Source: Rhodobacter sp.
GTDB taxonomy: Bacteria > Pseudomonadota > Alphaproteobacteria > Rhodobacterales > Rhodobacteraceae
NCBI GenBank assembly: GCA_027484145.1
Contig: JAIXUH010000013.1
Span: 1-64,000 of the forward strand
Length of the DNA stretch: 64,000 nucleotides
Reading direction: 5' to 3'
The position numbers and the translations under genes are program-made. Positions 29,989 to 52,859 of the stretch are shown one piece after another. The notes under the pieces are model-generated. The model was not told the DNA's origin, did not search any database, and saw only the letters and a program-made list of their open reading frames with translations. Each line of letters begins with the position of its first letter. Position 1 is the first letter of the stretch.

Positions 29989-29991
29989 CCG

Positions 29992-31930: not shown

Positions 31931-32737
31931 TTATTGGTTCAGCAGGCCAAAGAACGCGGCGACGAGCTTGGGCTGCGGTTTGAGCATTTCTGCGCCACCG
32001 ATGACCGGGCAGCCGATGGCTGCGGCGTCTTGCAACAGCCGGGTCATTGCGGGCTGAACCACGACCTCGGCCACCGTGGTGCGGCTGGTCAGTCCGTTCA
32101 GGCCAAGGGGAAGGGGATCATCCGGCTTCATCCCAAGCGATGTGCCGTTGACCAGAAGATCAGCTTGGGCCAGCGACCCGGCATCGGCCAGTGAAACGCG
32201 GAGGCCTGGGTGCGTGGCCTGCAAGGCATCGGCAAGGGCTTCGGCCTTGGCTGGGTCGCGGTTCATCAGGGCCAGTTCCGCCACCCCGGCCTCGGCCAGC
32301 GCAAAGGCAATCGCGCGGCCCACGCCACCCGTGCCAACCAGAAGCGCCCGCTTTCCAACCGGGTCAAACCCGTTGGCCAGCAAACCGGAGATGAACCCCG
32401 CGCCATCGGTGTTCGTGCCGGTCAGTGAGCCGTCGGGATTGCGGCGCACAAAGTTCGTCGCCCCCATGCGCCTTGCCATTGGGGTCAGGTCATCGACAAG
32501 CGCGCAGGTCGCCACCTTGTGCGGGATGGTGATGCCCAGCCCGGCCACGTTTTCCATCAGTCGCACCGCGCGCAGCACCGCATCAAAATTTGCGGGCCGC
32601 ACGTGAATGGGTACGATGGCTGCATCCAGACCCAGTGCAGCAAAGCTGTCATTGATCAGCACCGTGCCGCGGATATGTGACACCGGATCAGCCAGCATCA
32701 GCAGCATCGCCGTCTTTCCGGTAATGGGCGCGGTCAT
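31931..32737 (-). CDS. Shikimate dehydrogenase-like protein (AroE homologue with altered substrate site)
   Basis: A 268-residue protein with the AroE fold. The catalytic Lys74 (TIPHK) and Asp111 (GTNTDG) are present and the NADP loop is LLVGTGGVGRAIAFALAEAG. The shikimate-carboxylate serines, normally in a PIGHSLSP-type motif, are missing: the stretch reads DPVSHIRGT, with Ile22 and Gly24 in those places. It is the last gene of the eight-gene dpp operon. It is therefore probably a catabolic hydroxy-acid or amino-acid dehydrogenase, not the biosynthetic AroE. Confidence 0.83.
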   Translation of the reverse strand: MTAPITGKTAMLLMLADPVSHIRGTVLINDSFAALGLDAAIVPIHVRPANFDAVLRAVRLMENVAGLGITIPHKVATCALVDDLTPMARRMGATNFVRRNPDGSLTGTNTDGAGFISGLLANGFDPVGKRALLVGTGGVGRAIAFALAEAGVAELALMNRDPAKAEALADALQATHPGLRVSLADAGSLAQADLLVNGTSLGMKPDDPLPLGLNGLTSRTTVAEVVVQPAMTRLLQDAAAIGCPVIGGAEMLKPQPKLVAAFFGLLNQ

Positions 32738-32740
32738 CGG

Positions 32741-34177
32741 TCAGCCTTTGCGCGTGACAAGTCGGGTCTCAAGATAGGCATCCAGCGCTTCGGACCCGCC
32801 TTCCGTGCCGTGGCCGGAATCTTTCATTCCGCCGAAGGGAATCTCGGGCAGCGCAAGACCCAGATGGTTGATCGAGAGCATGCCTGCCTCTATTTCGGCC
32901 CCCAGCCGCGTGGCGGTGGCGCTGTCGCGTGTGAAGGCAAAGGCGGCCAAGGCAAATGGCAGGCGGTTTGCTTCGGCGATTGCGGCATCAAGGGCAGTGA
33001 AACGGTTCACGATGGCGACGGGGCCGAAAGGTTCCTCGTTCATGATGCGCGCCGATGTCGGCACATCGGCCAAGACCGTGGGCGCAAAGAACCACCCCTC
33101 GTTGCCCAGCCGCCGCCCGCCCGTCAGAAGCCGCGCGCCGTGATCTACGGCATCGGCCACCAAAGCCTCCAGCGCGGGGATGCGCCGTTCGTTGGCCAGC
33201 GGCCCCATCTCGGTTGTGGGGTCCATGCCGTTGCCAACCCGAAGCGCCTCGGCCACGGCCACGAAGCGCGCGGCAAAGGCATCGGCCAAGGGATCGGCCA
33301 CCAGAAACCGCGTCGGGGCCACGCAGACCTGCCCCGCATTGCGGAACTTGTTGGGAATGATCGTGCTGGCGGCAAGGTCCAGATCAGCATCAGCGGTGAT
33401 GATGACGGGGGCGTGTCCGCCCAACTCCATCGTCGCGCGCTTCATGTGCTGCCCGGCCAGTGCGGCAAGGTGTTTGCCGACGGGGGTGGAGCCTGTGAAG
33501 CTGATCTTGCGGATCACCGGGTGCGGGATCAGGTATTCCGAAATCTCGGCTGGCACGCCGAACACAAGGTTCGCCACACCTGAAGGCAGGCCCGCATCGG
33601 CAAAGGCGCGGATCAGTTCGGCGGGGCTGGCGGGCGTTTCCTCGGGGGCTTTGACAATGATGGAGCAGCCCGCCGCCAGTGCGGCCGACAGTTTGCGCAC
33701 CACCTGATTGATGGGAAAGTTCCACGGGGTGAAAGCCGCCACCGGCCCCACAGGCAGTTTCAGCGTGATTTGCAGCACATCCGGCGCGCGCGACGGGACC
33801 ACCTGACCATAGGCACGCTGCGCCTCGCCCGCGAACCAATCGATGATGTCTGCCCCCGCCAGCGTTTCCAGCCGGGCTTGCGCAAGCGGCTTGCCGTTTT
33901 CGCGCACCATCAGCGTTGCCACATCCTCGGCCCGGGCGCGCAGAATCTCGGCGGCCTTTCGCATCAGTTTGGCGCGGTCATATGCAGAGGTGCGGCGCCA
34001 GATCTGAAAGCCGCGCTCTGCCGCCGCAAGTGCGGCATCCAGATCGTCGCGGCTGGCATGGGCGACGGTGCCGATCCGGCCAGCGGTGGCGGGGTCGAAC
34101 ACCGGAATGGCGCGGCCATCCGACGCTGCGCGCCATGTACCATCAATGAAAAGCTGAACGTCGGGATAGGGGATCAT
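32741..34177 (-). CDS. NAD(P)-dependent aldehyde dehydrogenase (succinate-semialdehyde dehydrogenase-like)
   Basis: A 478-residue aldehyde dehydrogenase. The catalytic residues are Asn153 (PWNFPIN), Glu251 (ELGGHAP) and Cys285 (GQVCVAP). FTGSTPVGK is the nucleotide-binding turn and EEPFGPVA the C-terminal conserved block. Overall pattern is like the succinate-semialdehyde/glutarate-semialdehyde group. The start overlaps the previous gene stop (ATGA), and 3 bases separate it from the AroE-like gene. It likely oxidises the aldehyde released by transaminases of this locus. Confidence 0.9.
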
Positions 34178-36114
34178 GGCTTTGCCTTCCGGGTGATCTG
34201 GAACATGGGGCCGCCTTTTGTGCGGGGGAAGCCGTAGCCGTGGACCTGCACAAGGTCGATCTCGGCGGGGCTGGCGGCAATGCCTTCGTCAAGGATCGCC
34301 TGCCCCTCGGTCGCCATCGCACCGACCAGACGTTCCACGATCTGATCGGCCGGCAAAGACGTGCGTGGGCCGATCAGCGGAGCGATGATCTGCTGCGCTT
34401 CGTCCGAGGGGCGCGGCGTGCGGTCGCCCGCTGCATAATCATACCAGCCGCCCCCGGTTTTCATCCCTTTGCGCCCCGCGCGCACCAGCAGATCGCCGGG
34501 CGTTTCGGGCACATTCTCGCCGCGCGCCCGGGCGGCCTCGCGGTTCATGAAGCTGATGTCGAGCCCGGCCATATCCTGCATCTCGAACGGACCCATGGCA
34601 TAGCCAAAGCCGCGCATGGCGGCATCGATATCGGCGGGGGAGACGCCTGTGCGCAGCATCACCTCGGCCTCGGCGCGATAGCGTTTCAGGATGCGGTTGC
34701 CGATGAACCCTTCACAGATGCCCGACTGCACCGGCACCTTGCCCAGACGCCGCGCCAGATCAAACGCGGCGGCAAGAACATCGGGGGCCGTGTCGGGGAT
34801 GGGGATGATTTCCAGCAACTTCATCACTTGCGCGGGGCTGAAGAAATGCAGTCCGATGAACCGGTCCGGCGATGGCAAGCCTTCGGCGATGGCGCGCGGG
34901 TCGATGTAGGAGGTGTTGGTGGCAAGGATCGCTTCCGGACGGCAAAGGCGGGCCAGATCGGCAAAGACCGCGCGCTTCACGGCCAGATCCTCGAACACCG
35001 CCTCGATCACCAGATCGCAACCAGAAAGCCCCTCCAGCCCGATGCAGCCTGTCACCCCGGCCATGCGTGCAGTGGCCTCGGCCTCGGTGGACAGGCCCCG
35101 GCGGGCGGCGGCGTCGAAGATGCATTTGACGGTGCCAAGCCCCTTTTCCAATGCGGCGGGGTCGCGTTCTGACAGCACGACGGACAGGCCCGCATTGCGG
35201 ACGGCTGCCGCGATGCCGCTGCCCATGGTGCCGCCGCCCAAGATGCCGACGCTGGCGATGTCGCGCGGGGCGACGCCGCGCAGGGCGGCAGGGCGTGGGG
35301 CCGCGCGTTCGGCAAAGAAGAGATAACGCAGGGCTGCCGATTCCGCGGATGACCGCAGGGAAAGGAACGTTTCCCGCTCGTGCCGAAGGCCAGCCTCGAC
35401 GGCGTGATCCAGACCATAGCGAAGGGCGGCAAGGGCGGCGGGCGGTGCGGTCTGGCCTTTCGCCGCCTTGGACATGCGGGCGGCGGCGGCTTCCCAAAAG
35501 GCGGGGCCAGGGTCTTGCAGCGGGCGGCTGCGGGCGGGCGTGGGCAAGGTGGACAGGCCCGACGCAAAAGCGACCGCACCGTCCACAAGCGGGCCGTCAA
35601 TGATGCGATCCACCAGCCCCAAGGCGGCGGCGCGGGTTGTATCCAGCATATCGCGTTCGGCGACCACGGGGATGGCCGCCGCCAGCCCGATCAGGCGTGG
35701 CAGGCGTTGGGTGCCGCCAGCGCCGGGGATGATGCCAAGGTTCACCTCTGGCAGGCCAAGCGTAGCACCGGGGGAAGCCACGCGGGCATGACAGGCCAGC
35801 GCCAGTTCCAGCCCGCCGCCAAGGGCAGAGCCGTGAATGGCCGCGACCCAAGGCTTCGTCGCGGCCTCGATCCGCGCGATCAGATCGGGAAGGGTCGGAT
35901 CTTCGGGCGGGCGGTCGAATTCGGCAATGTCAGCCCCGCCCACGAACAACTTGCCCGCGCCGCACAAGACGATGGCGGACACCGAGGCATCCGCCTCTAT
36001 CTGGGCCGCAAGGTCGAACAGCCGCGCCCGCACCGCCGTTTTCAGCGCGTTCACGGGCGGATTGTCGATGGTCAGAACGGCGACGCTGCCATGTCGGTCC
36101 AGTGTGACGGTCAT
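34174..36114 (-). CDS. Bifunctional enoyl-CoA hydratase / 3-hydroxyacyl-CoA dehydrogenase (FadJ-like)
   Basis: A 646-residue two-domain beta-oxidation enzyme. Residues 1 to about 190 form the enoyl-CoA hydratase domain, with GGADIAEF, both catalytic glutamates (Glu103 in GGGLELAL and Glu123 in LPEVNLG) and the [14 protein letters not shown] block. From about 288 the NAD site [14 protein letters not shown] begins the 3-hydroxyacyl-CoA dehydrogenase domain, with [19 protein letters not shown] and FIGNRI. The order matches peroxisomal-type multifunctional enzyme. I use the ATG at 36114. It would hydrate and oxidise a CoA ester made by the adjacent CoA-transferase and acyl-CoA dehydrogenase. Confidence 0.92.
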
Positions 36115-36145
36115 CTCGGTTTCCCTGAGTGCACGGTACGGGCGG

Positions 36146-37396
36146 TCAGGCCGTCGCACCTTCCAAATCCTGTCCCGCAGCAGGCACAGTGTCCCTGCAG
36201 GCAATCACGCCCTGCGCCACCAGCGCCTCGATCCGCGTTGGATCGAAACCCAGCACATCCCGCAGCACCGTGCGCGTATCTTCGCCCAGAAGCGGCGGCG
36301 CCTTGTAGGTGTGCCCATCCTGCGCCGAGAGCCCTTGCGCCGGTCGGATCAGCGAGACGGGGCCAAGTTCCGGATGCTCCAGCGTCTGGATCACCCCACG
36401 CTCCACCACGGATTTCGCATTCAGCGCCTCGGCAACAGATTTCACAGGGCCCGCCGGCACATCGGCGGCAAGGCAAGCTTCCAGCCAATGCGCTGACGTC
36501 TGCGTTCCCACGATCTCTTGGATCGCATCCAGCAACTCTTGCCGGTGCAACGCCCGCTGATGCGAGGTGAGATAGCGCGGATCGTGGGCAAGGTCTGGCC
36601 GCAGGATCACCTGTTCGCAGAAATCCCGGAACATGCGGTCATTGCCGACGGCCAGCGCGAAAGACCCGTCGCTGGCGTTGAACAACTGATAGGGCACCAC
36701 GGTGGGATGTGCGTTGCCATAGCGCGTCGCTTCGACCCCTGCGTTCAGATAGGCAGTGCCCACGTTGATCAAAAGGTTCAGCGTGGAATCGAGCAGCGCC
36801 ACATCAATGAACTGGCCCAACCCAGTATCACGCCGCTGGTAAAGTGCGGCCAGCACCGATTGCGTGGCCACCATGCCGGCCACCACGTCGGTAAACGCCA
36901 CCCCCAGCCGGTTTGGCGGCCCGTCAGCCTCGCCGGTGATCGACATCAGCCCGCTTTCCGCCTGCATGATGAAGTCATAGCCGGGCCGCGTTGCCTCGGG
37001 CCCCGTCTGGCCATATCCAGAGATGGAGCAATAGACGATGCCGGGGTTGATGGCGCGGATGTCGGCATAGCCGATGCCCAGCCTGTCCACCGTACCGGCG
37101 CGGAAGTTTTCCACCACCACATCGGCGCGCGCCGCAAGGTCCAGCACGATGGCGCGGCCTTCGGGTGATTTCAGATCAAGCGCAATGCTTTGCTTGCCGC
37201 GATTGGCGCAGAGGTAATAGGTGCTGACGCCCTTGTAGTTGGGCACCGACCAGGCGCGGGTATCGTCGCCGCCCTTGATGTTCTCGATCTTCCAGACCTC
37301 GGCCCCAAGATCGGCAAGGCTCATCGTCGTCCAGGGTCCGGCGAGAACCCGTGTGAGGTCCAGCACCTTGATCCCTTCCAGCGGCAGGGTCTGCAT
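36146..37396 (-). CDS. CaiB/BaiF family CoA-transferase (class III)
   Basis: A 416-residue class III CoA-transferase that moves CoA between carboxylic acids. It begins [20 protein letters not shown], with the [12 protein letters not shown] block and the catalytic Asp170 in AFTDVVAGM, close to Asp169 of characterised members. The second domain shows [13 protein letters not shown]. It lies 26 bases after the dppF-like stop and 31 bases before the FadJ-like gene. It probably activates the imported acid or its deaminated product. Confidence 0.92.
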
Positions 37397-37422
37397 CGTC
37401 GTGGTCCTCCCTCGTTACGCTC

Positions 37423-38433
37423 TTAGCCCGTCGCTGCGAGGCCCGTTTCCCGGGCGCTTGGAAAATGGCAGGCAACGGCATGACCCTTGGCCTGATCGGC
37501 CAAAGGCGGTTCTTTTTCGGCGCAGATCGGTTGCGCGATGGGGCAGCGCGTCCGGAAACGGCAGCCCGACGGCGGGTTGATCGGGCTGGGCACATCGCCC
37601 TTGAGCACGATGCGGGTCCGGCTGCGTTCACGCGGCGGGTCGGCCAGCGGCACGGCTGACATCAGCGCTTGCGTGTAAGGGTGAAGTGGGGCGGCATAAA
37701 GCTGCCGCTTGTCGGCCACCTCGACGATCTTGCCCAGATACATCACGGCCACGCGGTCCGAGATGTGCTGAACGACGGACAGGTCATGCGCTATGAACAG
37801 AAAGGCGGTGCCGAACTCGCGTTGGATGTCTTTCAGAAGGTTCAGCACGCCCGCCTGTACCGAGACGTCCAGCGCCGACACGGGTTCGTCCAGCACCAGA
37901 AGTTCCGGCTGCAGTGCCAGTGCGCGGGCGATCACCACCCGCTGCCGTTGCCCACCGGACAGGGCATGGGGAAAACGGTCGCCATGTTCGGGGTTCAGGC
38001 GCACCAGATCCAGCATTTCGGCCACGCGGCGTTTTTGTGCAGCGGCATCCAGATCGCTGATCCGCAAGGGCTCGGCGATGTTTTGCGTGACGGTCATGCG
38101 CGGGTGAAGCGAGGCGTAGGGGTCCTGAAACACCAGTTGAATCTTGCGGCGCAGCATCCGCATCTGTGGTGCCGGAAGCGTGTTGATGTCCTGCCCGTGA
38201 AACAGCGTCTGCCCTTCGGAGGGTTCGATCAGCCGCAGGATGCAGCGCCCGAGTGTGGATTTCCCGCAGCCCGATTCACCGACGAGGCCGAGCGTTTCGC
38301 CCGCCGCCACGTCAAAGGACACGCCCGCCACCGCGTTGACGTGACCCACATCGCGTTCAATCAACAGCCCGCCCTTGACCGGAAAGCGCTTGACCAGATT
38401 ACGGACAGACAGGATCGGGTCGGGCTGGTTCAT
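37423..38433 (-). CDS. Dipeptide-type ABC transporter ATPase (DppF/OppF type)
   Basis: A 336-residue ATPase of the nickel/peptide/opine group. Walker A is GESGCGKS, the signature LSGGQRQR, Walker [13 protein letters not shown] and switch FIAHD. The C-terminal oligopeptide extension has [14 protein letters not shown] with the cysteine pattern typical of this group. The start ATG at 38433 overlaps the DppD-type stop (ATGA); the longer frame to 38559 is rejected. It pairs with the DppD-type ATPase. Confidence 0.93.
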
Positions 38434-39419
38434 CGCGCGGCCTCGACAGTTTGGAAGGCGAAATGGCACGCGGCGGTGTGTTCGGGCGCGCCCGTGGTAA
38501 CGGGGGCCGTTTGGCGGCAAATGTCTTGTGCCGCGATACAGCGAGGATTGAAGGCGCATCCCACAGGCAGGCGGCCAAGTGCGGGCGGGGTGCCATCAAT
38601 GGAAAACAGACGTTCACGCTCAATCGTCATGTCCGGGATCGAGGCGATGAGGCCGCGCGTATAGGGATGCCCCGGCCGGGCGAAAAGATCATCGACGCCC
38701 GCCTGTTCCACCACCTGCCCGGCATAGACCACGGCCACGCGGTCCGCATGGCCCGCAAGCACGCCAAGATCATGGGTGATCAGGATCAGGCCAAGCTTCA
38801 GCCGCGCCTGCAGATCGGCAAGCACCTCCATGATTTGGGCCTGCACGGTGACATCAAGCGCGGTGGTGGGTTCGTCGGCGATCAGCAGGTCAGGGTCATT
38901 GGCCACCGCCATGGCGATCATCACCCGCTGGCGCATGCCACCGGAAAATTCGTGCGGGAACTGGTGCAGCCGCCTGTCTGGCTGCGGGATGGAAACGAGG
39001 GCCAGAAGGTCTGTCGCGCGTTCGATCACTGCTTTGCGCGACATGTCGGGGTTATGCAGGAACACTGCCTCGGCGATCTGGTCACCGATGGTCATCACCG
39101 GGTTCAGCGATGACAGCGGGTCCTGAAAGATCATCGCGATGCGTGAGCCGCGCAGATGGCGCAAGGTGCGGCGCGGCAGCCCCACCAGTTCCTGCCCCTT
39201 GAACCGGACCGATCCGGTGACGCGCGCGCCTTCGGGTTGAAGGCCCAGCGCCGCCAGCATGCCGACGGATTTGCCAGAGCCGGATTCCCCGACGATGCCC
39301 AGCACCTCGCCATGATTGACATGCAGACTGACGCCGCGCACCGCTTCGGCGAACACACCGTTGCGTCCGAACGCCACGCGCAAATCGCGCACTTCGAACA
39401 AAGGGGGCGCCGCGTTCAT
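38430..39419 (-). CDS. Dipeptide-type ABC transporter ATPase (DppD/OppD type)
   Basis: A 329-residue ATPase. Walker A is GESGSGKS, the Q-loop lies in [12 protein letters not shown], the signature is FSGGMRQR, Walker [13 protein letters not shown] and the switch LITHD. The C-terminal [14 protein letters not shown] carries the cysteine motif of oligopeptide ATPases. Start and stop overlap the neighbours. With the DppF-type subunit it energises the DppB/DppC channel. Confidence 0.93.
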
Positions 39420-40255
39420 TTCGACCTCGGGTCAAAGTAATCGTGCAGGCCGTCACCGATGAAGTTGAAGCCAAGAACGATGGTCAGGATGGCAAGGCCG
39501 GGCCCAAGGGCGACCCACCACGAATAGAATTGTGAAGCCCCGTCCGAGATCATGGAGCCCCATTCCGGCGTGGGCGGCGTGGCGCCGAGACCGATGAACG
39601 ACAGCGATGCCGCCAGCAGGATCACTTGCCCCAGATCCATTGTTGCGCTGATCAGTACGGGCGTCCAGCACAACGGCAAAATGTGCCGCGTAAGCACACG
39701 GGTCTGCGTGGCACCCGAGGCGATGGCCGCCTCTACATGCTCGCGCTCGCGCACCTCCAGCACTTGCGCGCGCATCAGGCGGGCATAGACGGGCCACCAC
39801 ACGATCACCATCGCGATGGCGGCATTCCCAAGCCCCGGCCCCAGCGAAGCGGCAACCGCCATGGCCAGCAGCATCGGCGGGAAAGACAGCGTGACATCGA
39901 CAAGCCGCATGATGACGGTATCGACGAAGCCTCCCAGAAATCCGGCAAGCGCCCCAAGAAACGCCCCGATGGCGACCGCGCAGGCCACGACCGTGACGGC
40001 GATGGGGATGGAATGCCGCGCGCCGTGCAGGGTCCGGGTCAGCACGTCACGGCCCAGCGCATCGGTGCCCAGAAGGTGGTCCCAACTCGGCGGTTTCAGC
40101 CTGCGGCCCACCATATCGAGCGGGTCGTAGCCCGTCATCCACGGGGCTGCGACGGTGGCGATCAGCCAGAACAGGATCAGCAGTATCCCGATCAAGAGCG
40201 GGAAGGTCAGCCAGCGGGGGCGCGTCATGCGAGGAAAGGCGGTGGTGGCAGCCAT
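39416..40255 (-). CDS. Dipeptide-type ABC transporter permease (DppC type)
   Basis: A 279-residue inner-membrane permease with about six helices. It starts with a cytoplasmic leader and MTRPRWLTFPLLIGILLILF; PSWDHLLGTDALGRDVLTRT is the typical DppC block before the transmembrane core, and the EAA-type loop is EREHVEAAIASGATQTRVLT. Three bases separate it from the DppB-type gene and it overlaps the DppD-type gene. Confidence 0.93.
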   Translation of the reverse strand: MAATTAFPRMTRPRWLTFPLLIGILLILFWLIATVAAPWMTGYDPLDMVGRRLKPPSWDHLLGTDALGRDVLTRTLHGARHSIPIAVTVVACAVAIGAFLGALAGFLGGFVDTVIMRLVDVTLSFPPMLLAMAVAASLGPGLGNAAIAMVIVWWPVYARLMRAQVLEVREREHVEAAIASGATQTRVLTRHILPLCWTPVLISATMDLGQVILLAASLSFIGLGATPPTPEWGSMISDGASQFYSWWVALGPGLAILTIVLGFNFIGDGLHDYFDPRSK

Positions 40256-40258
40256 CGG

Positions 40259-41272: not shown

Positions 41273-41357
41273 GGCCTGTTCCTTCCCTGTGTTGCCGGTT
41301 GGAGGCGGTGTGTCTTCCCGGTAGTATTGACAACCGGCAGGCAGGTCGTCAACATAA

Positions 41358-41374
41358 TTGAAATTAAGTTTCAA
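41358..41374. promoter_or_regulatory. Palindromic operator between dppB-type gene and iclR
   Basis: TTGAAATTAAGTTTCAA has perfect 6-bp arms and a 5-base centre. It lies in the divergent promoter region, 55 bases before the iclR start. A related palindrome is at 46697-46713. The form fits sites of IclR-type regulators. Confidence 0.6.
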
Positions 41375-43552: not shown

Positions 43553-43555
43553 GGG

Positions 43556-44203: not shown

Positions 44204-45450
44204 GCCCTGCCTTCCCCGTAGTGGATCGCGCGCAAAAGCACATCATCGCTGCCCAGTTTTCCCGGCTTCAGGAACAGCCACAGCGGATCATCCCCTTCGC
44301 CCAGACATTCGCCAAGGCCAAGCGGCCCTTCGGGCAAAGCCCGCGCCGCGCCCAGCCCAAAGGCGGCGACGACCGCACCTGAGGTTTCGCCCCCCGCCAC
44401 CGCAAAACGGCGATGCCCGCGCTGGTGCAGGCCCTTTGCCACCCGCCCCAGCATGTCTTCGGCCAGCCGCGCAGCCCCCGCCGCGCCATGCACGGCCTGA
44501 CTGCGTGCCACGCCTGCGGCATCGGTCGCGGTCGACACCGCGAAAGACCCGCTCTGATGTTCGGCCCAAGCCAACGCCTCGGCAACCACCGCCGTGGTTC
44601 CGCGCGAGTCCAGAAGGTCAAGCGTCAGCACGGGGTGATTGAGTGCCGCGAGTTGGGCCAGAACGACAGGCCCGGTGCTGCCCGCCAGCACGGCAACCGG
44701 GCCGAAAGGCGGGGCCGGTGGCTGGGGAACAGGCTCGGGGTGGCAAAGCCGGGTGGCGAGTTCCACGATCAACGGATCGCTTGCCGCAACCGGCAGGTCA
44801 AGCCGCGCCGCAAGGTCTGCGGTCACCGTCACATCAGCATCGTCGGACGCATCGAACAGCACATGCCGCGCGCCGTCTGCCGCCAGACGCGCCAGCAATG
44901 CCCCGGCCGCCGCCAACCCCTGAACAAGCGTCAGATGGCCGACAAGCCCCACCTTGTGCGCGGTCTGGCGGCCAAGGAAACGCACAAGATCCGCGTCTTC
45001 CATCGGCGTCAGCGGATCAAGCCGCTTGATCGACTCTGACACCAGACGCGTGCGGTAAAACAGATAGCCCTGATGCACGGTTGCGCCAAAACGGGGAAAC
45101 CCTGCACTCATCAGCACGGGCCGTTTTCCGGCGCGGTCGACCAAAAGATCAGCCGCAGGGCCGATGTTACCTTCTGCCGTGGAATCGAAACTCGCGCAGG
45201 CCTTGTAGGCGATGCGCTGGCAGCCTGCGGTGGTCAACGCATCGTGCCAATGGGAGATTTCAGCCAGTGCTTCACTGACGGAGACTGTTCGGCTGCGGGC
45301 AGCAGCCACCAAAGCATCGGCATCGCGAAGGCCCGAAACGCCATCCGGGCGGAACAGAACGGGGCAGCAAATTCCCCGCCCTTCCAGCATGCCAGCCACC
45401 ATGACAGCGCCCGTGAAATCATCCGCGATGATGCCGAACGCGCGGGGCAT
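44200..45450 (-). CDS. Four-carbon acid sugar kinase family protein (OtnK-like, DUF1537)
   Basis: A 416-residue kinase of the DUF1537 family, whose characterised members phosphorylate 3-oxo-tetronate, D-threonate or D-erythronate. It starts MPRAFGIIADDFTGAVMVAG, with the typical ADDFTGA. The C-terminal nucleotide domain carries FAVAGGETSGAVVAAFGL and PGKLGSDDVLLRAI. I use the ATG at 45450; the frame opens from a GTG at 45474 inside the preceding gene. It is paired with a class II aldolase, which supports a tetronate-type substrate, but the usual NAD dehydrogenase and isomerase partners are not adjacent. Confidence 0.83.
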   Translation of the reverse strand: MPRAFGIIADDFTGAVMVAGMLEGRGICCPVLFRPDGVSGLRDADALVAAARSRTVSVSEALAEISHWHDALTTAGCQRIAYKACASFDSTAEGNIGPAADLLVDRAGKRPVLMSAGFPRFGATVHQGYLFYRTRLVSESIKRLDPLTPMEDADLVRFLGRQTAHKVGLVGHLTLVQGLAAAGALLARLAADGARHVLFDASDDADVTVTADLAARLDLPVAASDPLIVELATRLCHPEPVPQPPAPPFGPVAVLAGSTGPVVLAQLAALNHPVLTLDLLDSRGTTAVVAEALAWAEHQSGSFAVSTATDAAGVARSQAVHGAAGAARLAEDMLGRVAKGLHQRGHRRFAVAGGETSGAVVAAFGLGAARALPEGPLGLGECLGEGDDPLWLFLKPGKLGSDDVLLRAIHYGEGRA

Positions 45451-45458
45451 GGCTATGG

Positions 45459-46601
45459 TTACCTCTGGGCGCACATTTCGCGTGCAATGATGATCTGCTG
45501 GATCTGGGATGTCCCCTCATACAGCCGGAACAGCCGCACGTCGCGGTAGAAGTGTTCCACCGGATAATCCTGCATGTACCCCGCCCCGCCATGGACTTGT
45601 ACGGCGCGGTCGGCCACGCGACCCACCATTTCGGAACAGAACAGTTTGCACGAAGCGGCCTGCTGGATGATCCGCTCGCCCGCGTCAAATCGGCGGGCGG
45701 CGTCGATCACCATACAGTGCCCGGCATAGGTTTCGGTGGCGCAATCGGCCAGCATGGCCTGCACCAACTGATGCTCGGATATCTTCTTGCCAAACTGCAT
45801 GCGCGACGTGGCAAACCCCGTCGCCTCATCGCACAGGCGCTGCGCCTGACCCACGCAGACCGCCGCGATATGCAGGCGGCCCCGGTTCAGCACCTTCATG
45901 GCGGTCTTGAAGCCCTGCCCTTCCACCCCGCCGATCACTGCGTCAGCAGCCACGCGGCAATCATCCAGAATCACATCACAGGTCTTTGTTCCCCGCTGGC
46001 CCATCTTGCGGTCAGGCGAACCAAGGCTCAGCCCCGGGCTGTTGGCTGGCACCAAGAACGCCGTCACGCCGGACGGCCCGTCTTGCCCCGTCCGCGCCAT
46101 CAGCGTGAACACATCGGCCACGGGCGCATTGGTGATGTAGCGCTTTGTGCCGTTCAGGATGTAGTGATCGCCGTCGCGCCGTGCGGTTGTATTGACGGAG
46201 CCTGCATCAGACCCGACGTCTGGTTCGGTCAGGGCAAAGGACCCAATCACCTGCCCCGATGCCATACGTGGCAGCCAATAGTCCTTTTGCGCCTTGGTCC
46301 CGTCGACGATGATGCCCTGCGATCCGATGCCGTTGTTGGTGCCGATGACCGAGCGAAAGGCAGCTGAGGTGTAGCCCAACTCAAGCGCCACCATCACCTC
46401 TTCTTCCATCGTCAGGCCAAGCCCGCCGTATTCTTCGGGAATCGACATCCCGAACAGGCCGAGTGCGCGCATCTCATCGATGATGGCGGCGGGAATGGAG
46501 TTCGTTTCCTCCACCGCGCTTTCTGCCGGCACCAGCCTTTCGCGCACGAAACGGCGCACGGTTTCCAACAGTCCGTCAAGGATTTCGGCGTCTCGGATCA
46601 T
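45459..46601 (-). CDS. Acyl-CoA dehydrogenase
   Basis: A 380-residue FAD enzyme that makes 2-enoyl-CoA from acyl-CoA and reduces electron-transfer flavoprotein. The FAD/substrate blocks are SFALTEPDVGSDAGSV, KRYITNAPVADVFTL and VQVHGGAGYMQDYPVEHFYR; the catalytic base is Glu362 in LYEGTSQIQ. The ATG at 46601 starts MIRDAEILDGLLE; the 48 residues upstream cover the promoter. It would feed the FadJ-like enzyme of the opposite operon. First gene of a three-gene operon. Confidence 0.93.
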   Translation of the reverse strand: MIRDAEILDGLLETVRRFVRERLVPAESAVEETNSIPAAIIDEMRALGLFGMSIPEEYGGLGLTMEEEVMVALELGYTSAAFRSVIGTNNGIGSQGIIVDGTKAQKDYWLPRMASGQVIGSFALTEPDVGSDAGSVNTTARRDGDHYILNGTKRYITNAPVADVFTLMARTGQDGPSGVTAFLVPANSPGLSLGSPDRKMGQRGTKTCDVILDDCRVAADAVIGGVEGQGFKTAMKVLNRGRLHIAAVCVGQAQRLCDEATGFATSRMQFGKKISEHQLVQAMLADCATETYAGHCMVIDAARRFDAGERIIQQAASCKLFCSEMVGRVADRAVQVHGGAGYMQDYPVEHFYRDVRLFRLYEGTSQIQQIIIAREMCAQR

Positions 46602-46696
46602 CGCTTGTCTTGGTCTTTGCCACCGGGCCGGACCCGGCGCGAAAATTTCTGTTGCACGAAAAGGCTGGCACGGCTTAGTGTTCGGTTCAAGCGAAA

Positions 46697-46713
46697 ACGG
46701 AATTAATTTCCAC
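46697..46713. promoter_or_regulatory. Second palindromic operator, before the acyl-CoA dehydrogenase and E1 genes
   Basis: ACGGAATTAATTTCCAC matches the palindrome at 41358-41374 at 11 of 17 positions. Where the arms differ (A-T changed to G-C at positions 4 and 14) the symmetry is kept. It lies in the 221-base divergent promoter region between the two genes. Confidence 0.55.
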
Positions 46714-46822
46714 AAAAGCGATCCACCTGTCCGCGCACCGGACAAGGATCGGCAAAGGACCGAAGATGCCGCATCGGACCCCGCTTTCTTCGATGGCCCC
46801 GTGGTTCCGGCTGGAGTCGGAC

Positions 46823-48940
46823 ATGGCCGATTGGCATGCGGCGCGGCCTGCGGACCTTGTGCATTGGTATGCCCAGATGCTGCTGATCCGGCGGTTCGAG
46901 GAAAAGCTGCTGGAACTGGAAAAGGCAGGGCTGATCCATGGCCCCGCGCATGCCAGCATCGGGCAAGAGGCCGGGGCCGTTGGTGCCATGTCTGTGCTGG
47001 GTGCAGGGGACCGGATCAACGGGACGCACCGGGCGCACCATCAGGTGCTGATGAAACTGGTGAATGCCGTCACGCCCAAGGGCTTTGACGTGCTGAATGA
47101 CGCCTTTACGCCTGAGATGGACGAGGCGCTGCACCGCTTCATGGCCGAGATAATGGGCCTGACGCCCGGCTATTGCGGCGGGCGCGGCGGGTCGATGCAC
47201 ATGCGCCACGCGGCGGCGGGAATCATGGGCACATCGGCCATCGTGGGCGGCAACCCGCCCCATGCCGTGGGCTATGCTTTGGCTGACAAAATGCTGGGCC
47301 GCGATCAGGTGTCGGTCACGTTCTTTGGCGATGGCGCTGCACAGAATGGCGCAAGCTATGAGGCGATGAACATCGCCGCCGCGCAGCGGGTGCCGACGAT
47401 CTTTTTCATCGAGAACAACCTTTACGGTGTTTCCACACGGGTCAATGAGATCACGCGCGAAACGCGGATTTCATCGCGTGGGGCAATGCTGGGCATCCCG
47501 TCGATCGAGGTGGACGGGATGGATGTGGTGGCCGTGCACAACGCCATGGCCGAGGCGCGGCGGATCATCGCAACCGAAGGCGGGCCTGTGGTTGTGGAGG
47601 CGCTGCTGTACCGGCATTTCCACCAATCCGGCAGCCGCAGGGGCAGCGACTTTGGCTATCGCCCGACCGACGAGGAAGACGAATGGCTGGCGCGTGACCC
47701 GGTCACGACGGCCGCCGCAAGGTTGCGCGAGATGGGCATTACCAGCGCCGAAGACCTTGCCCGCATCGATGCCACCGTAACAGGCCGCGTGGCCGCCGCT
47801 GCGGCGACGCTGACGGAAACCGTTCCGGGTGGAAATGCCCTTCGTATTCCCGAACGCCTGTGGCCGGACCCCGCCACCCGCGATGACGGCATTCTGGGCG
47901 ATCTCTCTGAGCTGGCCGAGGCACGCATCCTTGACCATGGCGATATGGCCTGTGTTCCCACCGAGCGGGTCAAGTTCGTCACCGCTGCCTCCGAAACCTT
48001 GGCTGCCGCGATGGAGCGTGACCCGCGCATCATCGTGATGGGCGAAGATGTGCACCAGATGCGTGGCGGTGTTTCGGGCTTTACCAAAGGTGCCTTGGAA
48101 CGCTGGCCGGGGCGCGTACTGCCGATGCCGATTTCTGAAAACGGCTTTACCGGCGTGGCGCTTGGCGCGGCGCTGAACGGGTTGCGCCCGGTGGTCGAGA
48201 TCATGTTCGGTGACTTCTGCTTTACCGCCGCCGACCAGATTGCGCATGGTGTGGGCAAGGTGCGCCACATGTTCGGCTCTGGTTTTCCCGTGCCGCTTGT
48301 CATGCGGGTGCGGGTGTCTCCCCATACCGGCTATGGATCACAGCATTCGACCGACCCGTCCGCGCTGTTCGGCCTGTTTCCCGGCTGGCGCATCGTCAGC
48401 CCGTCCACCGCACATGACTACATCGGGTTGCTGAATGCCGCGCTGCGCTGCGACGACCCGGTGCTGGTGGTCGAACACACCGAGCTTTACCAGCGCGAGT
48501 TCGACGTGCCGGCAGGCGACCGTGATTTCATCATTCCCTTTGGCCGCGCCCATGTGGTGCGGCCCGGCACGGCCTGCACCGTGCTGGCCACCTCGGTCAT
48601 GGTGGCCCAAGCGGTGAAGGTGGCCGAGGAAACCGGCATCGACGCCGAGGTGATCGATCTGCGCAACATCGACCATCATGGCATCGACTGGGACATGATC
48701 GGCGACTCGATCGACCGCACCGGTCGTGTGATCATCGCCGAACAGACCGCGCGCAGCATGTCGATGGGTGCGACATGGGCCGAAGGCATCCAGAGCCGGT
48801 TCTTTGACAGTCTGGACTACGAAATTCTGCGCGTGACGGGGGGGCTTGCTGCGCCCACTGTCTCGGCAGTGCTCAATCGCGCCGCGCTTGGTTCTGCGGC
48901 GGATCTCCGCGAGGCGTTGCTTCGCATCACAGCCAACTAG
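46823..48940 (+). CDS. Fused alpha-beta E1 of a 2-oxoacid (acetoin-type) dehydrogenase
   Basis: A 705-residue fusion of both E1 subunits. Residues 1 to about 330 are the alpha part, with the thiamine diphosphate motif FFGDGAAQNGASYEAMNIAA and GGRGGSMHM. The beta part starts near 380 (FVTAASETLAAAMERDPRII) and shows GEDVHQMRGGVSG, PISENGFTGVALGAA and the C-terminal VSAVLNRAALGS. E1 of this kind decarboxylates a 2-oxoacid or cleaves acetoin and passes the acyl group to lipoyl-E2. The ATG at 46823 has GGAG upstream. The E2 partner is at 42281. Confidence 0.88.
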   Translation: MADWHAARPADLVHWYAQMLLIRRFEEKLLELEKAGLIHGPAHASIGQEAGAVGAMSVLGAGDRINGTHRAHHQVLMKLVNAVTPKGFDVLNDAFTPEMDEALHRFMAEIMGLTPGYCGGRGGSMHMRHAAAGIMGTSAIVGGNPPHAVGYALADKMLGRDQVSVTFFGDGAAQNGASYEAMNIAAAQRVPTIFFIENNLYGVSTRVNEITRETRISSRGAMLGIPSIEVDGMDVVAVHNAMAEARRIIATEGGPVVVEALLYRHFHQSGSRRGSDFGYRPTDEEDEWLARDPVTTAAARLREMGITSAEDLARIDATVTGRVAAAAATLTETVPGGNALRIPERLWPDPATRDDGILGDLSELAEARILDHGDMACVPTERVKFVTAASETLAAAMERDPRIIVMGEDVHQMRGGVSGFTKGALERWPGRVLPMPISENGFTGVALGAALNGLRPVVEIMFGDFCFTAADQIAHGVGKVRHMFGSGFPVPLVMRVRVSPHTGYGSQHSTDPSALFGLFPGWRIVSPSTAHDYIGLLNAALRCDDPVLVVEHTELYQREFDVPAGDRDFIIPFGRAHVVRPGTACTVLATSVMVAQAVKVAEETGIDAEVIDLRNIDHHGIDWDMIGDSIDRTGRVIIAEQTARSMSMGATWAEGIQSRFFDSLDYEILRVTGGLAAPTVSAVLNRAALGSAADLREALLRITAN

Positions 48941-48945
48941 AAAAC

Positions 48946-48962
48946 GGACCGGACACCGGTCC
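48946..48962 (+). terminator. Hairpin between E1 and binding-protein genes
   Basis: GGACCGG-ACA-CCGGTCC, a 7-bp perfect stem six bases after the E1 stop. No T run. Likely a processing or partial-termination element. Confidence 0.4.
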
Positions 48963-48982
48963 ACCAACAGGAGGACGGCCAC

Positions 48983-50581
48983 ATGATACTCAAGGGACTG
49001 AAGCCACGGGCGACGTTGCTGTCGCTTGCGGTTGCCGCCGCGGTCTTCGGGCTTTTCGTGCCGGGGGCGCAGGCGCAGGAAAAGGCGCTGGTGATCGCGC
49101 GCGACATGGATGTGAACGCACTCGATCCGGCACGGGCGTGGTGCGATACCTGCCAGATCTATAACGCTGCCGTCTATGAACAGCTTGTCACGCTGGACAA
49201 GGACAACAAGCTTCAACCGCTCCTCGCAACAAGCTGGTCGTCGAACCCCGAACAGACCGAATTCACCTTCAAGCTGGACCCTGCCGCAAAATTCTCGGAC
49301 GGTTCCGCCGTTGAGGCGAAAGACGTGAAATGGTCGTTCGAACGGCTGAAGAACATGAAGGGCAACGCGGCCTTCCTTGCCGATCCGATCACCGCCGTAG
49401 AGACGCCGGATGCACAGACTGTCATCGTAAAGCTTTCCGCCTCGAACTCTGAATTCCTGAACCAAGCAGCGGCTGGTTTCCTTGGCGTTATCAACAGCGA
49501 CGTTGCCACCGCAAACGGCGCGTTGGCTGATGAAACGACCGCAGAAAAGGACACATCCGAAACATGGTTCTTGTCAAACTCGGCTGGCAGCGGGCCCTTC
49601 GTGCTGGCGGCGTATGAACCCAACGCCGAACTGCGACTGAAGCGGAATGAAGGTTACTGGCGGACGAAGCCGACCATTCCTGAGGTCATCTTCCGTCAGG
49701 TCAAGGATGCCGTCAGCCAAGCGCAGATGCTGCAATCGGGCGAAGTGGACATCGCCATGCAGATCGACCCCGAAACTGCAAAGTCGCTGGAGGGCACGCC
49801 TGCCGTTGTTGAGAAGGTCCCGTCCTACAACTTTGTCTATATTGCGCTGTCGCCGGGGGCGAAGGCCACCCCCATCGACATGAGCCCCGAAGTGCGTGAG
49901 GCAATCTCGATCGCCATCGACCGCACCTCGCTGATCGACTTCACGCTGGGTGGCGCTGGCCGCCCGCTGGCAGCACCCATTCCATTGGGCTTCCCCGGTG
50001 GCGACGGGCATGCGATTCCGGAATACATCCCGGAAAAGGCCAAGGAAATGCTGGCCGCGGCAGGGCATCCTGATGGCTTTACCCTGCAGTCGATCTATCC
50101 CGACATGAACGTCTATGGCGTGGACTTCAACCTGATGATGCAGAAGATCCAGCAGGACCTGTCCAAGGTCGGCGTCACGCTGGAACTGCAGCCCGTGCCC
50201 TTTGCCAACTGGCGCGAAGCGGCGAATGGCGATCACATCCCGCTGACCGCCGTGTTCTTTGCGCCCGATTTCTTTGGCTCGTCGCAATACATCGACGTGT
50301 TCGGGATGCAGGAAGGTTCGGTCTGGGCCAAGCGCGCGGGGGGCGCGACGGTCCCCGGCATCATCAACCCGCGTCCGGGTGAGTTGAAGGCAAAGGCCCT
50401 TGCCGCAGCGACGGCAGAAGAGGCCAACGCGCTGTGGACGGAAGCCGCGCAAGAGATGATCAACAACAAGATCATCATCCCGATGGTCAGCCCCGACCTG
50501 ATCCTTGCCTATGGGCCGAACATCAAGGGCGTGCGCTATAGCGCCTGCTGCAACCTGCCGCTGGCCGAGATTACCAACTGA
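48983..50581 (+). CDS. ABC transporter substrate-binding protein, family 5 (dipeptide/nickel type)
   Basis: A 532-residue periplasmic binding protein for the Dpp-type importer encoded at 37.4-41.3 kb. The signal peptide is MILKGLKPRATLLSLAVAAA through GAQAQ. The mature part begins EKALVIARDMDVNALDPARAW and shows the family block KFSDGSAVEAKDVKWSFERL and the second-lobe VREAISIAIDRTSLID. AGGAGG lies before the start. Ligand unknown; family members bind peptides, opines, nickel or other amino compounds. It is framed by hairpins at 48946 and 50588. Confidence 0.92.
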   Translation: MILKGLKPRATLLSLAVAAAVFGLFVPGAQAQEKALVIARDMDVNALDPARAWCDTCQIYNAAVYEQLVTLDKDNKLQPLLATSWSSNPEQTEFTFKLDPAAKFSDGSAVEAKDVKWSFERLKNMKGNAAFLADPITAVETPDAQTVIVKLSASNSEFLNQAAAGFLGVINSDVATANGALADETTAEKDTSETWFLSNSAGSGPFVLAAYEPNAELRLKRNEGYWRTKPTIPEVIFRQVKDAVSQAQMLQSGEVDIAMQIDPETAKSLEGTPAVVEKVPSYNFVYIALSPGAKATPIDMSPEVREAISIAIDRTSLIDFTLGGAGRPLAAPIPLGFPGGDGHAIPEYIPEKAKEMLAAAGHPDGFTLQSIYPDMNVYGVDFNLMMQKIQQDLSKVGVTLELQPVPFANWREAANGDHIPLTAVFFAPDFFGSSQYIDVFGMQEGSVWAKRAGGATVPGIINPRPGELKAKALAAATAEEANALWTEAAQEMINNKIIIPMVSPDLILAYGPNIKGVRYSACCNLPLAEITN

Positions 50582-50587
50582 TCTTTC

Positions 50588-50615
50588 GCGGGGGGTGCTA
50601 TCGGGTGCCCCCCGC
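50588..50615 (+). terminator. Hairpin after the family 5 binding-protein gene
   Basis: GCGGGGGG / CCCCCCGC, an 8-bp stem with a 12-base loop, seven bases after the stop. No T run follows; downstream genes are on the same strand, so read-through is expected. Confidence 0.45.
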
Positions 50616-50637
50616 TTCCTTGGACAGAGAGATTCCC

Positions 50638-51882
50638 ATGACAGCGCCCCTTGGCAATTCCCGCGACCTCGCCCTGCAAGAACGGGCGCGTCACGTCATA
50701 CCCAACGGCATGTGGGGCCACATGGCCACGCGGTCCATCGCGCCGGGCTATCCTCAATTCTTTTCCCGCGCCTCTGGCTGCCGTGTCTGGGACGCCGACG
50801 GCAACGAATACATTGATTTCATGTGCGCCTGGGGGCCGAATGTCCTTGGCTATCATCACACGGCGGTCGAGGCTGCGGCGCTTTCGCAGTTGCAGGTCGT
50901 CGACTCGGGCAATGGCCCGACCGAAATGGTCGTGGAACTGGCAGAACTGCTGACTTCGACGCTTGACCACGCGGACTGGTGCCTGTTCGAAAAGAATGGC
51001 ACCGACGCCACCACGGCCTGTGTCACCATTGCGCGCTCCGCGACGGGCAAGCGAAAGGTGATCATGGCGAAGGGCGCCTATCACGGGGCCGTTCCGTGGT
51101 GCTCGCCCTCGGTCATCGGGGTCACGGCCGAGGACCGTGCTCACCTTATTTCGTTCGATTGGGGCGATCTTGTCAGTCTTGAGGCCGCCGTGGCACAGGC
51201 CGGGGACGATCTGGCCGCGATCATCCTGACGGCGTTCCGCCATGATGTGGGACGCGATCAGGAACTGCCCACAGCCGAATTCCTGCGCGCCGCCCGCGCC
51301 CATTGTGACCGGGCCGGGGCAATGCTGATCTGCGATGATGTGCGGGCAGGCTTTCGTCTGGACGTGCGCGGCAGTTGGGCGCGCTATGGCGTGAAGCCTG
51401 ACCTTGCCGCCTATTCCAAAGCCATTGCCAATGGCTGGCCGCTGGCCGCGATTGCAGGCGCGAACCATGCGCGGGCGGGGGCAGAAAAGATCTTTACCAC
51501 CGGGTCATTTTGGTATGGCGCAGCAGCCATGGCCGCCGCTGTGGCCACCGTTCGGATCCTGCGGGATACAGACGCGCTGGCCCATACCGAGGCGATGGGC
51601 AAGCGCTTTCGGCAGGGGTTGGATCAGGCCGCCACACACCACGGTTATCGGCTGCGCCAGACCGGCCCTGTGCAAATGCCGATGGTGCTGGTGGACGGCG
51701 ATCAGGACCTGCGGATCGGCAATGCGCTATGTGCGGCGGCGCTGCGCCACGGGATTTTCCTTCACCCCAAGCACAACATGTTCCTCTGTGCCGCCCATAC
51801 CGCCGCCGACATTGACCGCGCGGTCGAGGGCGTGGACCGAGCGTTTGCCGATATTGCTGCCGCCGGCGTTGTGCCCGCCTGA
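50638..51882 (+). CDS. Class III aminotransferase (glutamate-1-semialdehyde aminomutase-like)
   Basis: A 414-residue PLP enzyme. The cofactor Lys261 is in [17 protein letters not shown], the PLP-ring Asp in [11 protein letters not shown], and the phosphate-binding block is [41 protein letters not shown] is the family N-terminal block. It resembles GSA aminomutase-like transaminases used in catabolism rather than HemL itself. The ATG at 50638 follows AGAGAG. It is 14 bases before the class IV transaminase gene, so the two act on the same substrate set. Confidence 0.9.
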
Positions 51883-51896
51883 CCAAAGGTTTCTCG

Positions 51897-52859
51897 ATGA
51901 CTTACACCGACCACATCTTTACCGAATACCGCTGCAGGCTGGCCGAATTGCAAGAAAGCCCAAACCCCTTTGCCAAGGGCATCGCTTGGGTGGGCGGTGA
52001 TTATGTACCGGTGGCCGAGGCGAAGATTCCGCTGCTGGATCAGGGGTTTCTTCACTCGGACCTGACCTATGACGTGCCCGCCATCTGGAACGGTCGCTTC
52101 TTCCGGCTGGACGATCACCTCGACCGGTTCGAGGCGAGCCTGAAGAAACTGCGCCTGAAAAGCCCGATCCCACGGCAGGATATCCGCGACCGTCTGGTGG
52201 AAATGGCCGCCAAAAGCGGTATTCGCGACGCCTATGTGATGATGATCGTGACCCGTGGGCTGCGCTATGTGCGCCAGTATGCGCCGGAGGACTGCGAGAA
52301 CTTCTGCTATCTGATGGTCACACCCTACCTTTGGGTGATGAACGAAGAGGTCCAGAAGACCGGCGGCTCTGCCATCATCGCCCGCACGGTGCGCCGCATC
52401 CCGCCGGGGGCCATCGACCCCACGGTCAAGAACCTGCAATGGGGCGATTTCACCCGCGGGATCTTTGAGGCCCGGGACCGTGGCGCCATGTATCCGATCC
52501 TGACGGATGGAGACGCCAACCTGACCGAAGGCTCTGGCTTCAACGTGGTGCTGGTCAAGGATGGGCGGCTTTACACCCCGCGCCGGGGCGTGCTGGAGGG
52601 CGTGACGCGCAAGTCCGTGCTGGCCGTGGCCGACAAGCTTGGCATCCCGTGGGTGATCGACGATATCCCTGTGCAGATGGCCTATGACTGCGACGAGATC
52701 ATGTTCGTCACCACTGCAGGGGGTGTCATGCCAATTACCACGCTTGATGATCGGCCTGTCGGTGATGGTGAGGTGGGGCCCGTGAGCAAAGCCATCTGGA
52801 AGGGCTATTGGGATGCCCATTCCGACCCCGACTACAGTTTCCCCATCAACTACTACTGA
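51897..52859 (+). CDS. Fold-type IV transaminase, (R)-selective amine transaminase-like
   Basis: A 320-residue PLP enzyme of the branched-chain aminotransferase fold. Lys178 ([10 protein letters not shown]) forms the Schiff base; Glu211 (LTEGSGFN) is the PLP nitrogen partner; His53 and Tyr58 lie in [11 protein letters not shown]. The whole length ([54 protein letters not shown]) follows the known (R)-amine:pyruvate transaminases such as the Aspergillus terreus enzyme, and the mobile-loop Arg126 (YVRQYAPED) matches the arginine that binds the 2-oxoacid carboxylate. Natural substrate unknown. Last gene before the integrase relic. Confidence 0.9.

Follow-up and report, generated by a model that had tools for sequence, protein, structure and literature searches.

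Positions 31931-52859 of the stretch analysed here (64,000 nt of contig JAIXUH010000013.1 from the Rhodobacter sp. assembly GCA_027484145.1; hereafter the window) carry 17 genes, all of them long open reading frames (ORFs) with clear matches in family-library scans of their proteins. Together they form a real, conserved and probably co-regulated catabolic cluster in which known enzyme families meet in a new combination. A first-pass annotation had named this gene set, including two transaminases of different folds, and the scans bear it out; the gene for an IclR-family regulator (41429-42253) and two operator-like sites had not been part of it. Based on gene spacing there are four transcription units; neighbouring genes overlap or lie 3-42 bp apart, and the two wide gaps, of 156 and 218 bp, are the divergent promoters. 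Unit 1 (minus strand) comprises an AroE-like dehydrogenase, an aldehyde dehydrogenase (ALDH), a FadJ-like enzyme, a CaiB-type CoA-transferase and DppF, DppD, DppC and DppB; unit 2 (plus strand) the IclR regulator and an E2-hydrolase; unit 3 (minus strand) an aldolase, a kinase and an acyl-CoA dehydrogenase (ACAD); and unit 4 (plus strand) a fused E1, a family 5 binding protein (SBP5), a class III transaminase (AT3) and a class IV transaminase (AT4). Among the curated-model matches listed, a cut-off was reached only by the E2 and the DppF ATPase. The features, assigned by family match where no other basis is given, are as follows.

31931..32737, minus strand: AroE-fold NAD(P) dehydrogenase, distinct from the housekeeping aroE, with Lys74 and Asp111 retained and the shikimate site (Ser-x-Ser) replaced
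32741..34177, minus strand: aldehyde dehydrogenase, SSADH-like; under the cut-off of all models among the matches listed
34174..36117, minus strand: FadJ-like enoyl-CoA hydratase / 3-hydroxyacyl-CoA dehydrogenase
36146..37396, minus strand: CaiB/BaiF family III CoA-transferase; top match succinate--glutarate CoA-transferase, below cut-off
37423..38433, minus strand: DppF-type ATPase
38430..39419, minus strand: DppD/OppD-type ATPase
39416..40255, minus strand: DppC-type permease
40259..41272, minus strand: DppB-type permease
41359..41373, plus strand: 15-bp palindrome TGAAATTAAGTTTCA, operator-like, within the divergent promoter between DppB and IclR
41429..42253, plus strand: IclR-family regulator, PcaR/PcaU/PobR-like, below cut-off
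42281..43552, plus strand: AcoC-type E2 with lipoyl domain, E3-binding domain and alpha/beta hydrolase; NF011457 above cut-off, and domains
43556..44203, minus strand: FucA-type class II aldolase; family match, catalytic residues kept
44200..45474, minus strand: OtnK-like kinase
45459..46604, minus strand: acyl-CoA dehydrogenase
46698..46712, plus strand: second such palindrome, CGGAATTAATTTCCA, also operator-like, within the divergent promoter between ACAD and E1
46823..48940, plus strand: fused E1 alpha-beta, thiamine-diphosphate dependent; alternative starts 46766, 46793 or 46823
48983..50581, plus strand: family 5 solute-binding protein
50605..51882, plus strand: class III transaminase, FumI-like (6hbs, E 2.3e-129)
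51897..52859, plus strand: class IV (R)-amine transaminase (6xu3, E 7.5e-185; 251 of 319 residues identical)

With AT4 as query, public genome contigs yielded 45 related loci, with flanks of up to 10 kb and several cut by contig ends (these and the other loci fetched are numbered below with the prefix L). Using a simple codon-scored ORF caller and clustering, AT3 was counted in 35 of them, SBP5 in 30, E1 in 24, the OtnK-like kinase in 22, the aldolase in 20, the E2-hydrolase in 16 and ACAD in 15. Twenty loci were then picked for a visible fused E1, and the E2-hydrolase was found in the host genome of 19 (E <= 1e-60). More flank was fetched for 16 of the 20, a gene being counted at an identity of at least 40%. 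All 16 have CaiB, DppB, DppC, DppD, DppF, IclR, the E2-hydrolase, E1, SBP5, AT3 and AT4; ACAD and the aldolase occur in 15 each, the kinase in 12, ALDH in 11, FadJ in 10, a PcaF-like thiolase in 4 and AroE in 3. Two plasmids, pShin-08 of Shinella and a conjugative one of Agrobacterium, carry 16 of the 17 genes, AroE being the one missing. Neither kinase nor aldolase is in view in L046. This gene content and its conservation back the first-pass proposal of a single unit that takes up an amino compound, transaminates it, oxidises an aldehyde and leads, through CoA activation, into beta-oxidation.

The two divergent intergenic regions were compared across orthologous regions for a common 12-letter word, allowing up to two mismatches. 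One word was present in 90% and 100% of the two region sets; when the second set was shuffled ten times, no word rose above 24% in both. The motif pattern, YGRAATTNNNTTYCA, has two matches in the window, at 41359 and 46698, against 0.06 expected, and none of 100 window shuffles contained two. It was found in 21 of 21 DppB/IclR promoters (20 independent members, L139 and L167 probably being one contig) and 17 of 17 ACAD/E1 promoters, the window counted in both. As the pattern was derived from these same promoter regions, its placement in the loci and in rearranged clusters is more telling. All 40 matches in 34 loci (700,309 bases) lie outside matched genes and just ahead of cluster genes, and in rearranged clusters the palindrome precedes E1 (L042, L046), a unit of enoyl-CoA hydratase, PaaH and E1 (L047, L048, L050, L052, L053) or ACAD (L042, L045). 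The pattern was not found in the minimal loci L055, L056, L061 and L071, in L058, L060 and L064 (Ancylobacter), or in L107 and L144.

Across the whole source genome the pattern has seven matches, five of them outside the locus (three within called genes, two intergenic), where about five would be expected by chance when scaled from the window shuffles and where the pattern read backwards gives none. The two intergenic matches lie at L178:3192 (C39) and L176:3004 (C30), one of them adjoining an aldehyde dehydrogenase-like gene with 32% identity to the ALDH of the window; they may be further regulon members or chance occurrences. Because of the conserved gene content and the common operator-like site, we hold with high confidence that the locus is one conserved unit, beyond chance adjacency. 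Both the neighbourhood comparison and the question of whether the parts are regulated apart, raised in the first-pass annotation, were answered in favour of one unit. Judging from the sequence, the cluster is probably under the control of one IclR-type regulator, which is predicted to bind the two palindromes.

The nearest solved protein to AT3 is 6hbs, an aminopentol aminotransferase that we take, from its protein name, to be FumI of Sphingopyxis sp. MTA144 (435.3 bits over 399 residues); the next PDB match is glutamate-1-semialdehyde aminomutase, at 155 bits. Lys272 of AT3 is kept in 35 of 35 sequences, and the pyridoxal phosphate lysine of AT4, Lys178, in 46 of 46, the window included in both counts. 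AT4 matches 14 PDB sequences at E <= 6.3e-124, nine of them named as amine, omega- or (R)-selective transaminases, after which matches fall to 1.5e-80, a group of further (R)-amine transaminases and proteins named as branched-chain aminotransferases (BCAT). By these matches AT4 groups with characterised (R)-amine transaminases, which are known for amines of the form CH3-CH(NH2)-R, rather than with BCAT or D-amino acid aminotransferases. The 6XU3 chain as printed is identical to AT4 of Shinella sp. SUS2 (319 of 319 residues), and the SUS2 gene lies within a cluster of 16 of the 17 genes, AroE not being in view (L040 plus L137). D-amino acid dehydrogenase relatives near AT4 in three loci (L062, L066, L070) could recycle D-alanine.

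To our knowledge, no cellular role has been described for bacterial (R)-amine transaminases. In the titles, abstract openings and passages covered in open-licence PubMed Central we found neither a metabolic context for these enzymes nor a paper describing the cluster, in keeping with the first-pass view that no described pathway has this gene set. Passages on how (R)-selective transaminases were discovered give no metabolic role (PMC7228992), 6XU3 is named as an (R)-amine transaminase from Shinella, and true enzymes of this group are said to accept D-alanine as donor (PMC10671532). With FumI, hydrolysed fumonisin gives up its 2-amino group to pyruvate, so that alanine and a 2-keto-3-hydroxy compound are formed (PMC2933618). 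Transamination, as first proposed, stands, but the product is more likely a ketone than an aldehyde or oxoacid: both AT3 and AT4 point to conversion of an amine to a ketone.

The E2 passes the acetoin-dehydrogenase AcoC model NF011457 with 364.3 bits against a cut-off of 307, and its lipoyl Lys43 and hydrolase triad (S256, D376, H401) are conserved in all 16 sequences compared, the window's own among them. The fused E1 is a single protein of 705-724 residues, depending on the start chosen, with domains that resemble the E1 subunits of pyruvate dehydrogenase (PDH) and of the branched-chain complex. There is no E3 gene in the locus; two genes elsewhere in the genome score above the E3 cut-off, and three split E1 gene pairs also lie elsewhere. 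In other loci AT3 stands beside a split transketolase, another thiamine enzyme (L107, L112, L158), or beside a FucA-type aldolase with either an OtnK-like (L107, L159) or a ribokinase-like kinase (L115, L160). Around AT3 in 12 fetched genomes, the transketolase pair was seen in L107 and L112, kinase and aldolase in L107 and L115, and neither in the other nine. An alpha-hydroxyketone intermediate is proposed with moderate confidence, because the nearest characterised relative of AT3 makes one, the system to which the E2 belongs cleaves one (acetoin), and the neighbours of AT3 elsewhere would act on one. With an acetoin-dehydrogenase-like E2, an aldehyde would therefore arise at the cleavage step.

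The surroundings of 24 more distant fused E1s (45-59% identity; unequal flanks) contain a short-chain dehydrogenase/reductase (SDR) in 14 cases, an E2 in 10, an AroE-like protein in 6 and ALDH in 4. The idea that ALDH is a regular neighbour of fused E1s was dropped on this recount, and no ALDH was seen in any of L085-L093. The clearest distant clusters, L153 and L170, combine SDR, AroE-like, ALDH, E1 and E2 genes. Among the wider fused-E1 clusters L153, L154, L166 and L169-L172, six of seven are on plasmids (Phaeobacter, Pseudomonas, Salipiger, Rhodovulum, Caballeronia, Streptomyces), and the SDR, AroE-like, ALDH and E2/E3 genes vary; a class IV aminotransferase is also present in L153 and L169.

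As to the acid half, in Mesorhizobium relatives a PaaH-like dehydrogenase and an enoyl-CoA hydratase replace FadJ. A thiolase passing the PcaF model occurs in L033, thiolases with 63-66% identity to the Agrobacterium one occur in L033, L035, L049 and L072, and in Agrobacterium T29 pcaF lies inside the operon. Taken together with a CaiB nearest to succinate-glutarate CoA-transferase and a PcaR-like IclR protein (both below cut-off), this hints at a C5-C6 dicarboxylate-like chain. Just beyond the cluster on the conjugative Agrobacterium plasmid (L173:24343-26795), DUF3445, dimethylamine monooxygenase DmmA-like and PDR/VanB oxidoreductase genes are annotated.

Among curated models the kinase matches 3-oxo-tetronate kinase (OtnK) best, yet it stays under the cut-off of NF043035 (271.6 against 350). 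The aldolase likewise misses both the OtnC model NF043034 (108.2 against 250) and the L-fuculose-1-phosphate aldolase FucA model TIGR01086 (188.9 against 400.25); it is closest to FucA, and its catalytic residues were aligned with 1fua. In class II aldolases histidines bind the metal and a glutamate and a tyrosine act as acid/base, and E74, H93, H95, Y114 and H157 are kept in 21 of 21 sequences, window included. The AroE-like protein scores 132.9 on the aroE model (cut-off 200.2), where another gene of the genome scores 228.8. The Ser-x-Ser motif that forms the shikimate site of AroE is replaced in it and in its five aligned relatives, and a solved AroE-fold relative is 5-ketofructose reductase. 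Shikimate dehydrogenases have been reported to act on iminosugar imines or aminoketones, intermediates from aminopolyols (PMC9881201), which by analogy offers a lead for the AroE-like enzyme. Kinase, FucA-type aldolase and AroE-like dehydrogenase may together form a second route.

From these parts we propose, at a probability of about 0.5, that the cluster is a single regulon under IclR control that lets the cell grow on some small soluble beta-amino alcohol. SBP5 and DppBCDF would import the amino alcohol, and the FumI-like class III and (R)-selective class IV transaminases would deaminate its two epimers, passing the nitrogen to pyruvate and yielding an alpha-hydroxyketone. The fused E1 and lipoyl-hydrolase E2, with an E3 coded elsewhere, would cleave this between C2 and C3, as in acetoin dehydrogenase, releasing an aldehyde and an acyl-CoA, which for a methyl ketone would be acetyl-CoA. 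The SSADH-like ALDH would oxidise the aldehyde to an acid, on which CaiB would place CoA, and ACAD and FadJ would take it to a 3-oxoacyl-CoA; the 3-oxoadipyl-CoA thiolase of some relatives would suit a C6 dicarboxylate-like chain. The AroE-like dehydrogenase may shift the hydroxyketone between oxidation states, while kinase and FucA-type aldolase could provide a second cleavage route for members of the substrate class ending in CH2OH. That the cluster serves an amine is held with high confidence. The substrate may be a 2-amino-3-hydroxy compound, probably further hydroxylated or with a distal acid, but confidence in the substrate is low; the best PDB match of the binding protein, AgaA (1.2e-35), is too distant for naming a ligand. 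Biotin-precursor, phenicol, fumonisin, sphingoid and opine substrates were weighed, and nothing in the data picks one.

Gene content, its conservation, the common operator-like sites, the enzyme families and the conserved catalytic residues are seen directly in the sequence, and from them we infer every reaction, the order of the steps, the binding of IclR to the sites and the substrate class. Several observations weigh against the proposal. The likeness to FumI does not fix the specificity of AT3, and no E1-type curated model, including those for PDH E1, reaches its cut-off for the fused E1. The kinase/aldolase pair fits poorly with a plain methyl-ended substrate. Five of the 16 extended loci gave no ALDH and six no FadJ (L030 stops at its contig edge), and the minimal relatives have AT3, AT4 and the importer with no E1, aldolase or CoA genes in view. 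ALDH is also no general mark of the E1 family; following the recount (4 of 24), confidence in the proposal was therefore lowered from 0.55 to 0.5, and two of its rivals were raised slightly.

The rival that survives best makes the main flow ketose-like: a 2-amino-1,3(,4)-polyol would give HOCH2-CO-CHOH-R, the OtnK-like kinase would phosphorylate C1, and the FucA-type aldolase would yield dihydroxyacetone phosphate and an aldehyde, leaving E1/E2 as a minor 1-deoxy branch. In L107, L115, L159 and L160 AT3 is accompanied by a FucA-type aldolase and a kinase from either of two families, which is in its favour, as are the intact catalytic residues of the aldolase, the 5-ketofructose reductase relationship of the AroE-fold enzyme and the activity of shikimate dehydrogenases on aminopolyol-derived intermediates (PMC9881201). 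We nevertheless regard it as doubtful, given that E1 and E2 are present in all 16 extended loci (although these had been picked for E1), that L046 has E1 with no kinase or aldolase in view, and that the amines usually associated with (R)-amine transaminases are methyl-ended.

Less likely again is a role of E1/E2 as a 2-oxoacid dehydrogenase of the ordinary sort, in which an amino acid is converted to a 2-oxoacid and this decarboxylated oxidatively to an acyl-CoA, as in branched-chain amino acid breakdown. The likeness of the E1 domains to PDH and branched-chain subunits and the scarcity of ALDH near distant fused E1s would agree with this, but the PDH E1 models are missed, the AcoC model is passed, and an alpha/beta hydrolase replaces the acyltransferase domain of the E2. 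Neither transaminase is nearest to amino-acid enzymes, and ALDH would be superfluous for such a step. The first-pass version, in which transamination to an aldehyde or oxoacid is joined by a branch that runs via the phosphate of a four-carbon acid sugar (threonate/erythronate type), is very improbable: the best curated match of the kinase speaks for it, but both the OtnK and OtnC cut-offs are missed, the aldolase is FucA-like, and no partner of the OtnI/LtnD type (threonate/erythronate dehydrogenase or isomerase) came up when the 17 proteins were scanned for families. That the locus holds adjacent but separate pathways sharing a neighbourhood by chance is scarcely credible: the rearranged or split parts of some relatives (L045, L047, L048, L050, L052, L053) would fit it, but gene content is conserved and the same operator-like site stands ahead of the units in rearranged clusters as well.

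The cluster has variants. The minimal, Rhizobium-type loci retain AT3, AT4 and SBP5-DppBCDF along with a TetR relative and an EamA permease. In loci of the Ancylobacter type there is an NtaA/DmoA-like monooxygenase together with a PotDBCA-like importer and, in most of them, a flavin reductase. NtaA/DmoA-like FMN monooxygenases, mostly with flavin reductases, and PotD-like importers occur near transaminases in L141, L143, L058-L060, L064, L065 and L067, which suggests N-substituted substrates in some relatives. AT3 adjoins dimethylformamidase, amidase or penicillin acylase relatives in L109, L114, L144 and L157-L159, where an amide-opening first step is possible. Neither AT3 nor E1 is in view in nine AT4 loci (L041, L051, L057, L058, L059, L063, L068, L070, L073).

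No close AT4 was found in 15 same-genus genomes (best E 7e-12 to 3e-27, against 2e-225), and E1 at an identity of at least 72% was found in 4 of the 394 family genomes searched, the window's own included. To the right of the locus lie tRNA-Met (53235-53311) and a hydantoinase-like gene, the latter present in 12 of the 15 congeners. In all six congeners fetched, tRNA-Met follows the hydantoinase-like gene; homologues of window genes left of 19.5 kb start 5 to 9 kb past the tRNA in four of them, and none were found in the 20 kb fetched from the other two. The DNA from about 19.5 to 53.2 kb (19500-53230) thus looks like a lineage-specific stretch beside a tRNA gene. A tRNA-end repeat was considered as an attachment site and rejected, as 53200-53330 has no exact match of at least 13 bp elsewhere in the window. 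The stretch also contains a second catabolic locus. The left neighbour of the cluster is a plus-strand gene ending at 31660, and the plus-strand run at 27017-31660 includes, from family scans, a glycerol-1-phosphate dehydrogenase-like enzyme and a HAD phosphatase and, from reading of the sequence, a sugar-type ABC ATPase and SIS-like and SDR-like proteins; it is perhaps a separate polyol-phosphate pathway. Further right, a 734-residue ORF (56927-59131) reads as an NADH-dehydrogenase-like part fused to selenide, water dikinase.

A broader idea is put forward tentatively, at somewhat short of even odds: the cluster may represent a hitherto undescribed route for the catabolism of chiral amino polyols or imino-sugar-like compounds, in which bacterial (R)-amine transaminases would have their physiological home. 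Its two transaminases, opposite in handedness, would converge on one alpha-hydroxyketone, to be split by the thiamine complex or the kinase-aldolase pair, with the AroE-fold dehydrogenase acting on a polyhydroxyketone or cyclic imine; related modules elsewhere would begin by releasing the amine from an amide, using relatives of penicillin acylase, amidase or dimethylformamidase. As catalysts, (R)-amine transaminases are valued, and one of them, together with its solved Shinella orthologue, is now placed inside a conserved and probably co-regulated pathway; its cellular role can therefore be addressed by growth, transcript and binding experiments, and the candidate 15-bp operator can be used for tracing the regulon. 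A general logic for amino alcohol breakdown may also follow, namely deamination to a hydroxyketone and splitting of this by a thiamine enzyme or a kinase-aldolase pair.

Four known systems resemble parts of the cluster. AT3 is a class III transaminase like FumI of fumonisin B1 degradation in Sphingopyxis sp. MTA144 (6hbs, 6hbv); in the locus it is accompanied by importer genes, E1/E2, an (R)-amine transaminase and the CoA genes. The substrate of FumI has its amine next to a carbinol, and transfer of the amino group to pyruvate leaves an alpha-hydroxyketone (PMC2933618). The (R)-selective fold type IV amine transaminases are known as biocatalysts, whereas here one sits in a catabolic cluster. 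With the OtnK/OtnC four-carbon acid sugar system the locus shares the kinase family and an adjoining enzyme of the class II aldolase fold, but both proteins fall short of the curated cut-offs, and the likeness of the aldolase is to FucA. The E2 matches AcoC of the acetoin dehydrogenase system (AcoA/B/C), and the likeness lies in the C-C cleavage of an alpha-hydroxyketone to an acyl-CoA and an aldehyde that is proposed for the locus. Acetoin dehydrogenase has separate AcoA and AcoB E1 subunits, whereas in the locus E1 alpha and beta are fused, the E3 gene is absent, and the pathway would start from an amine.

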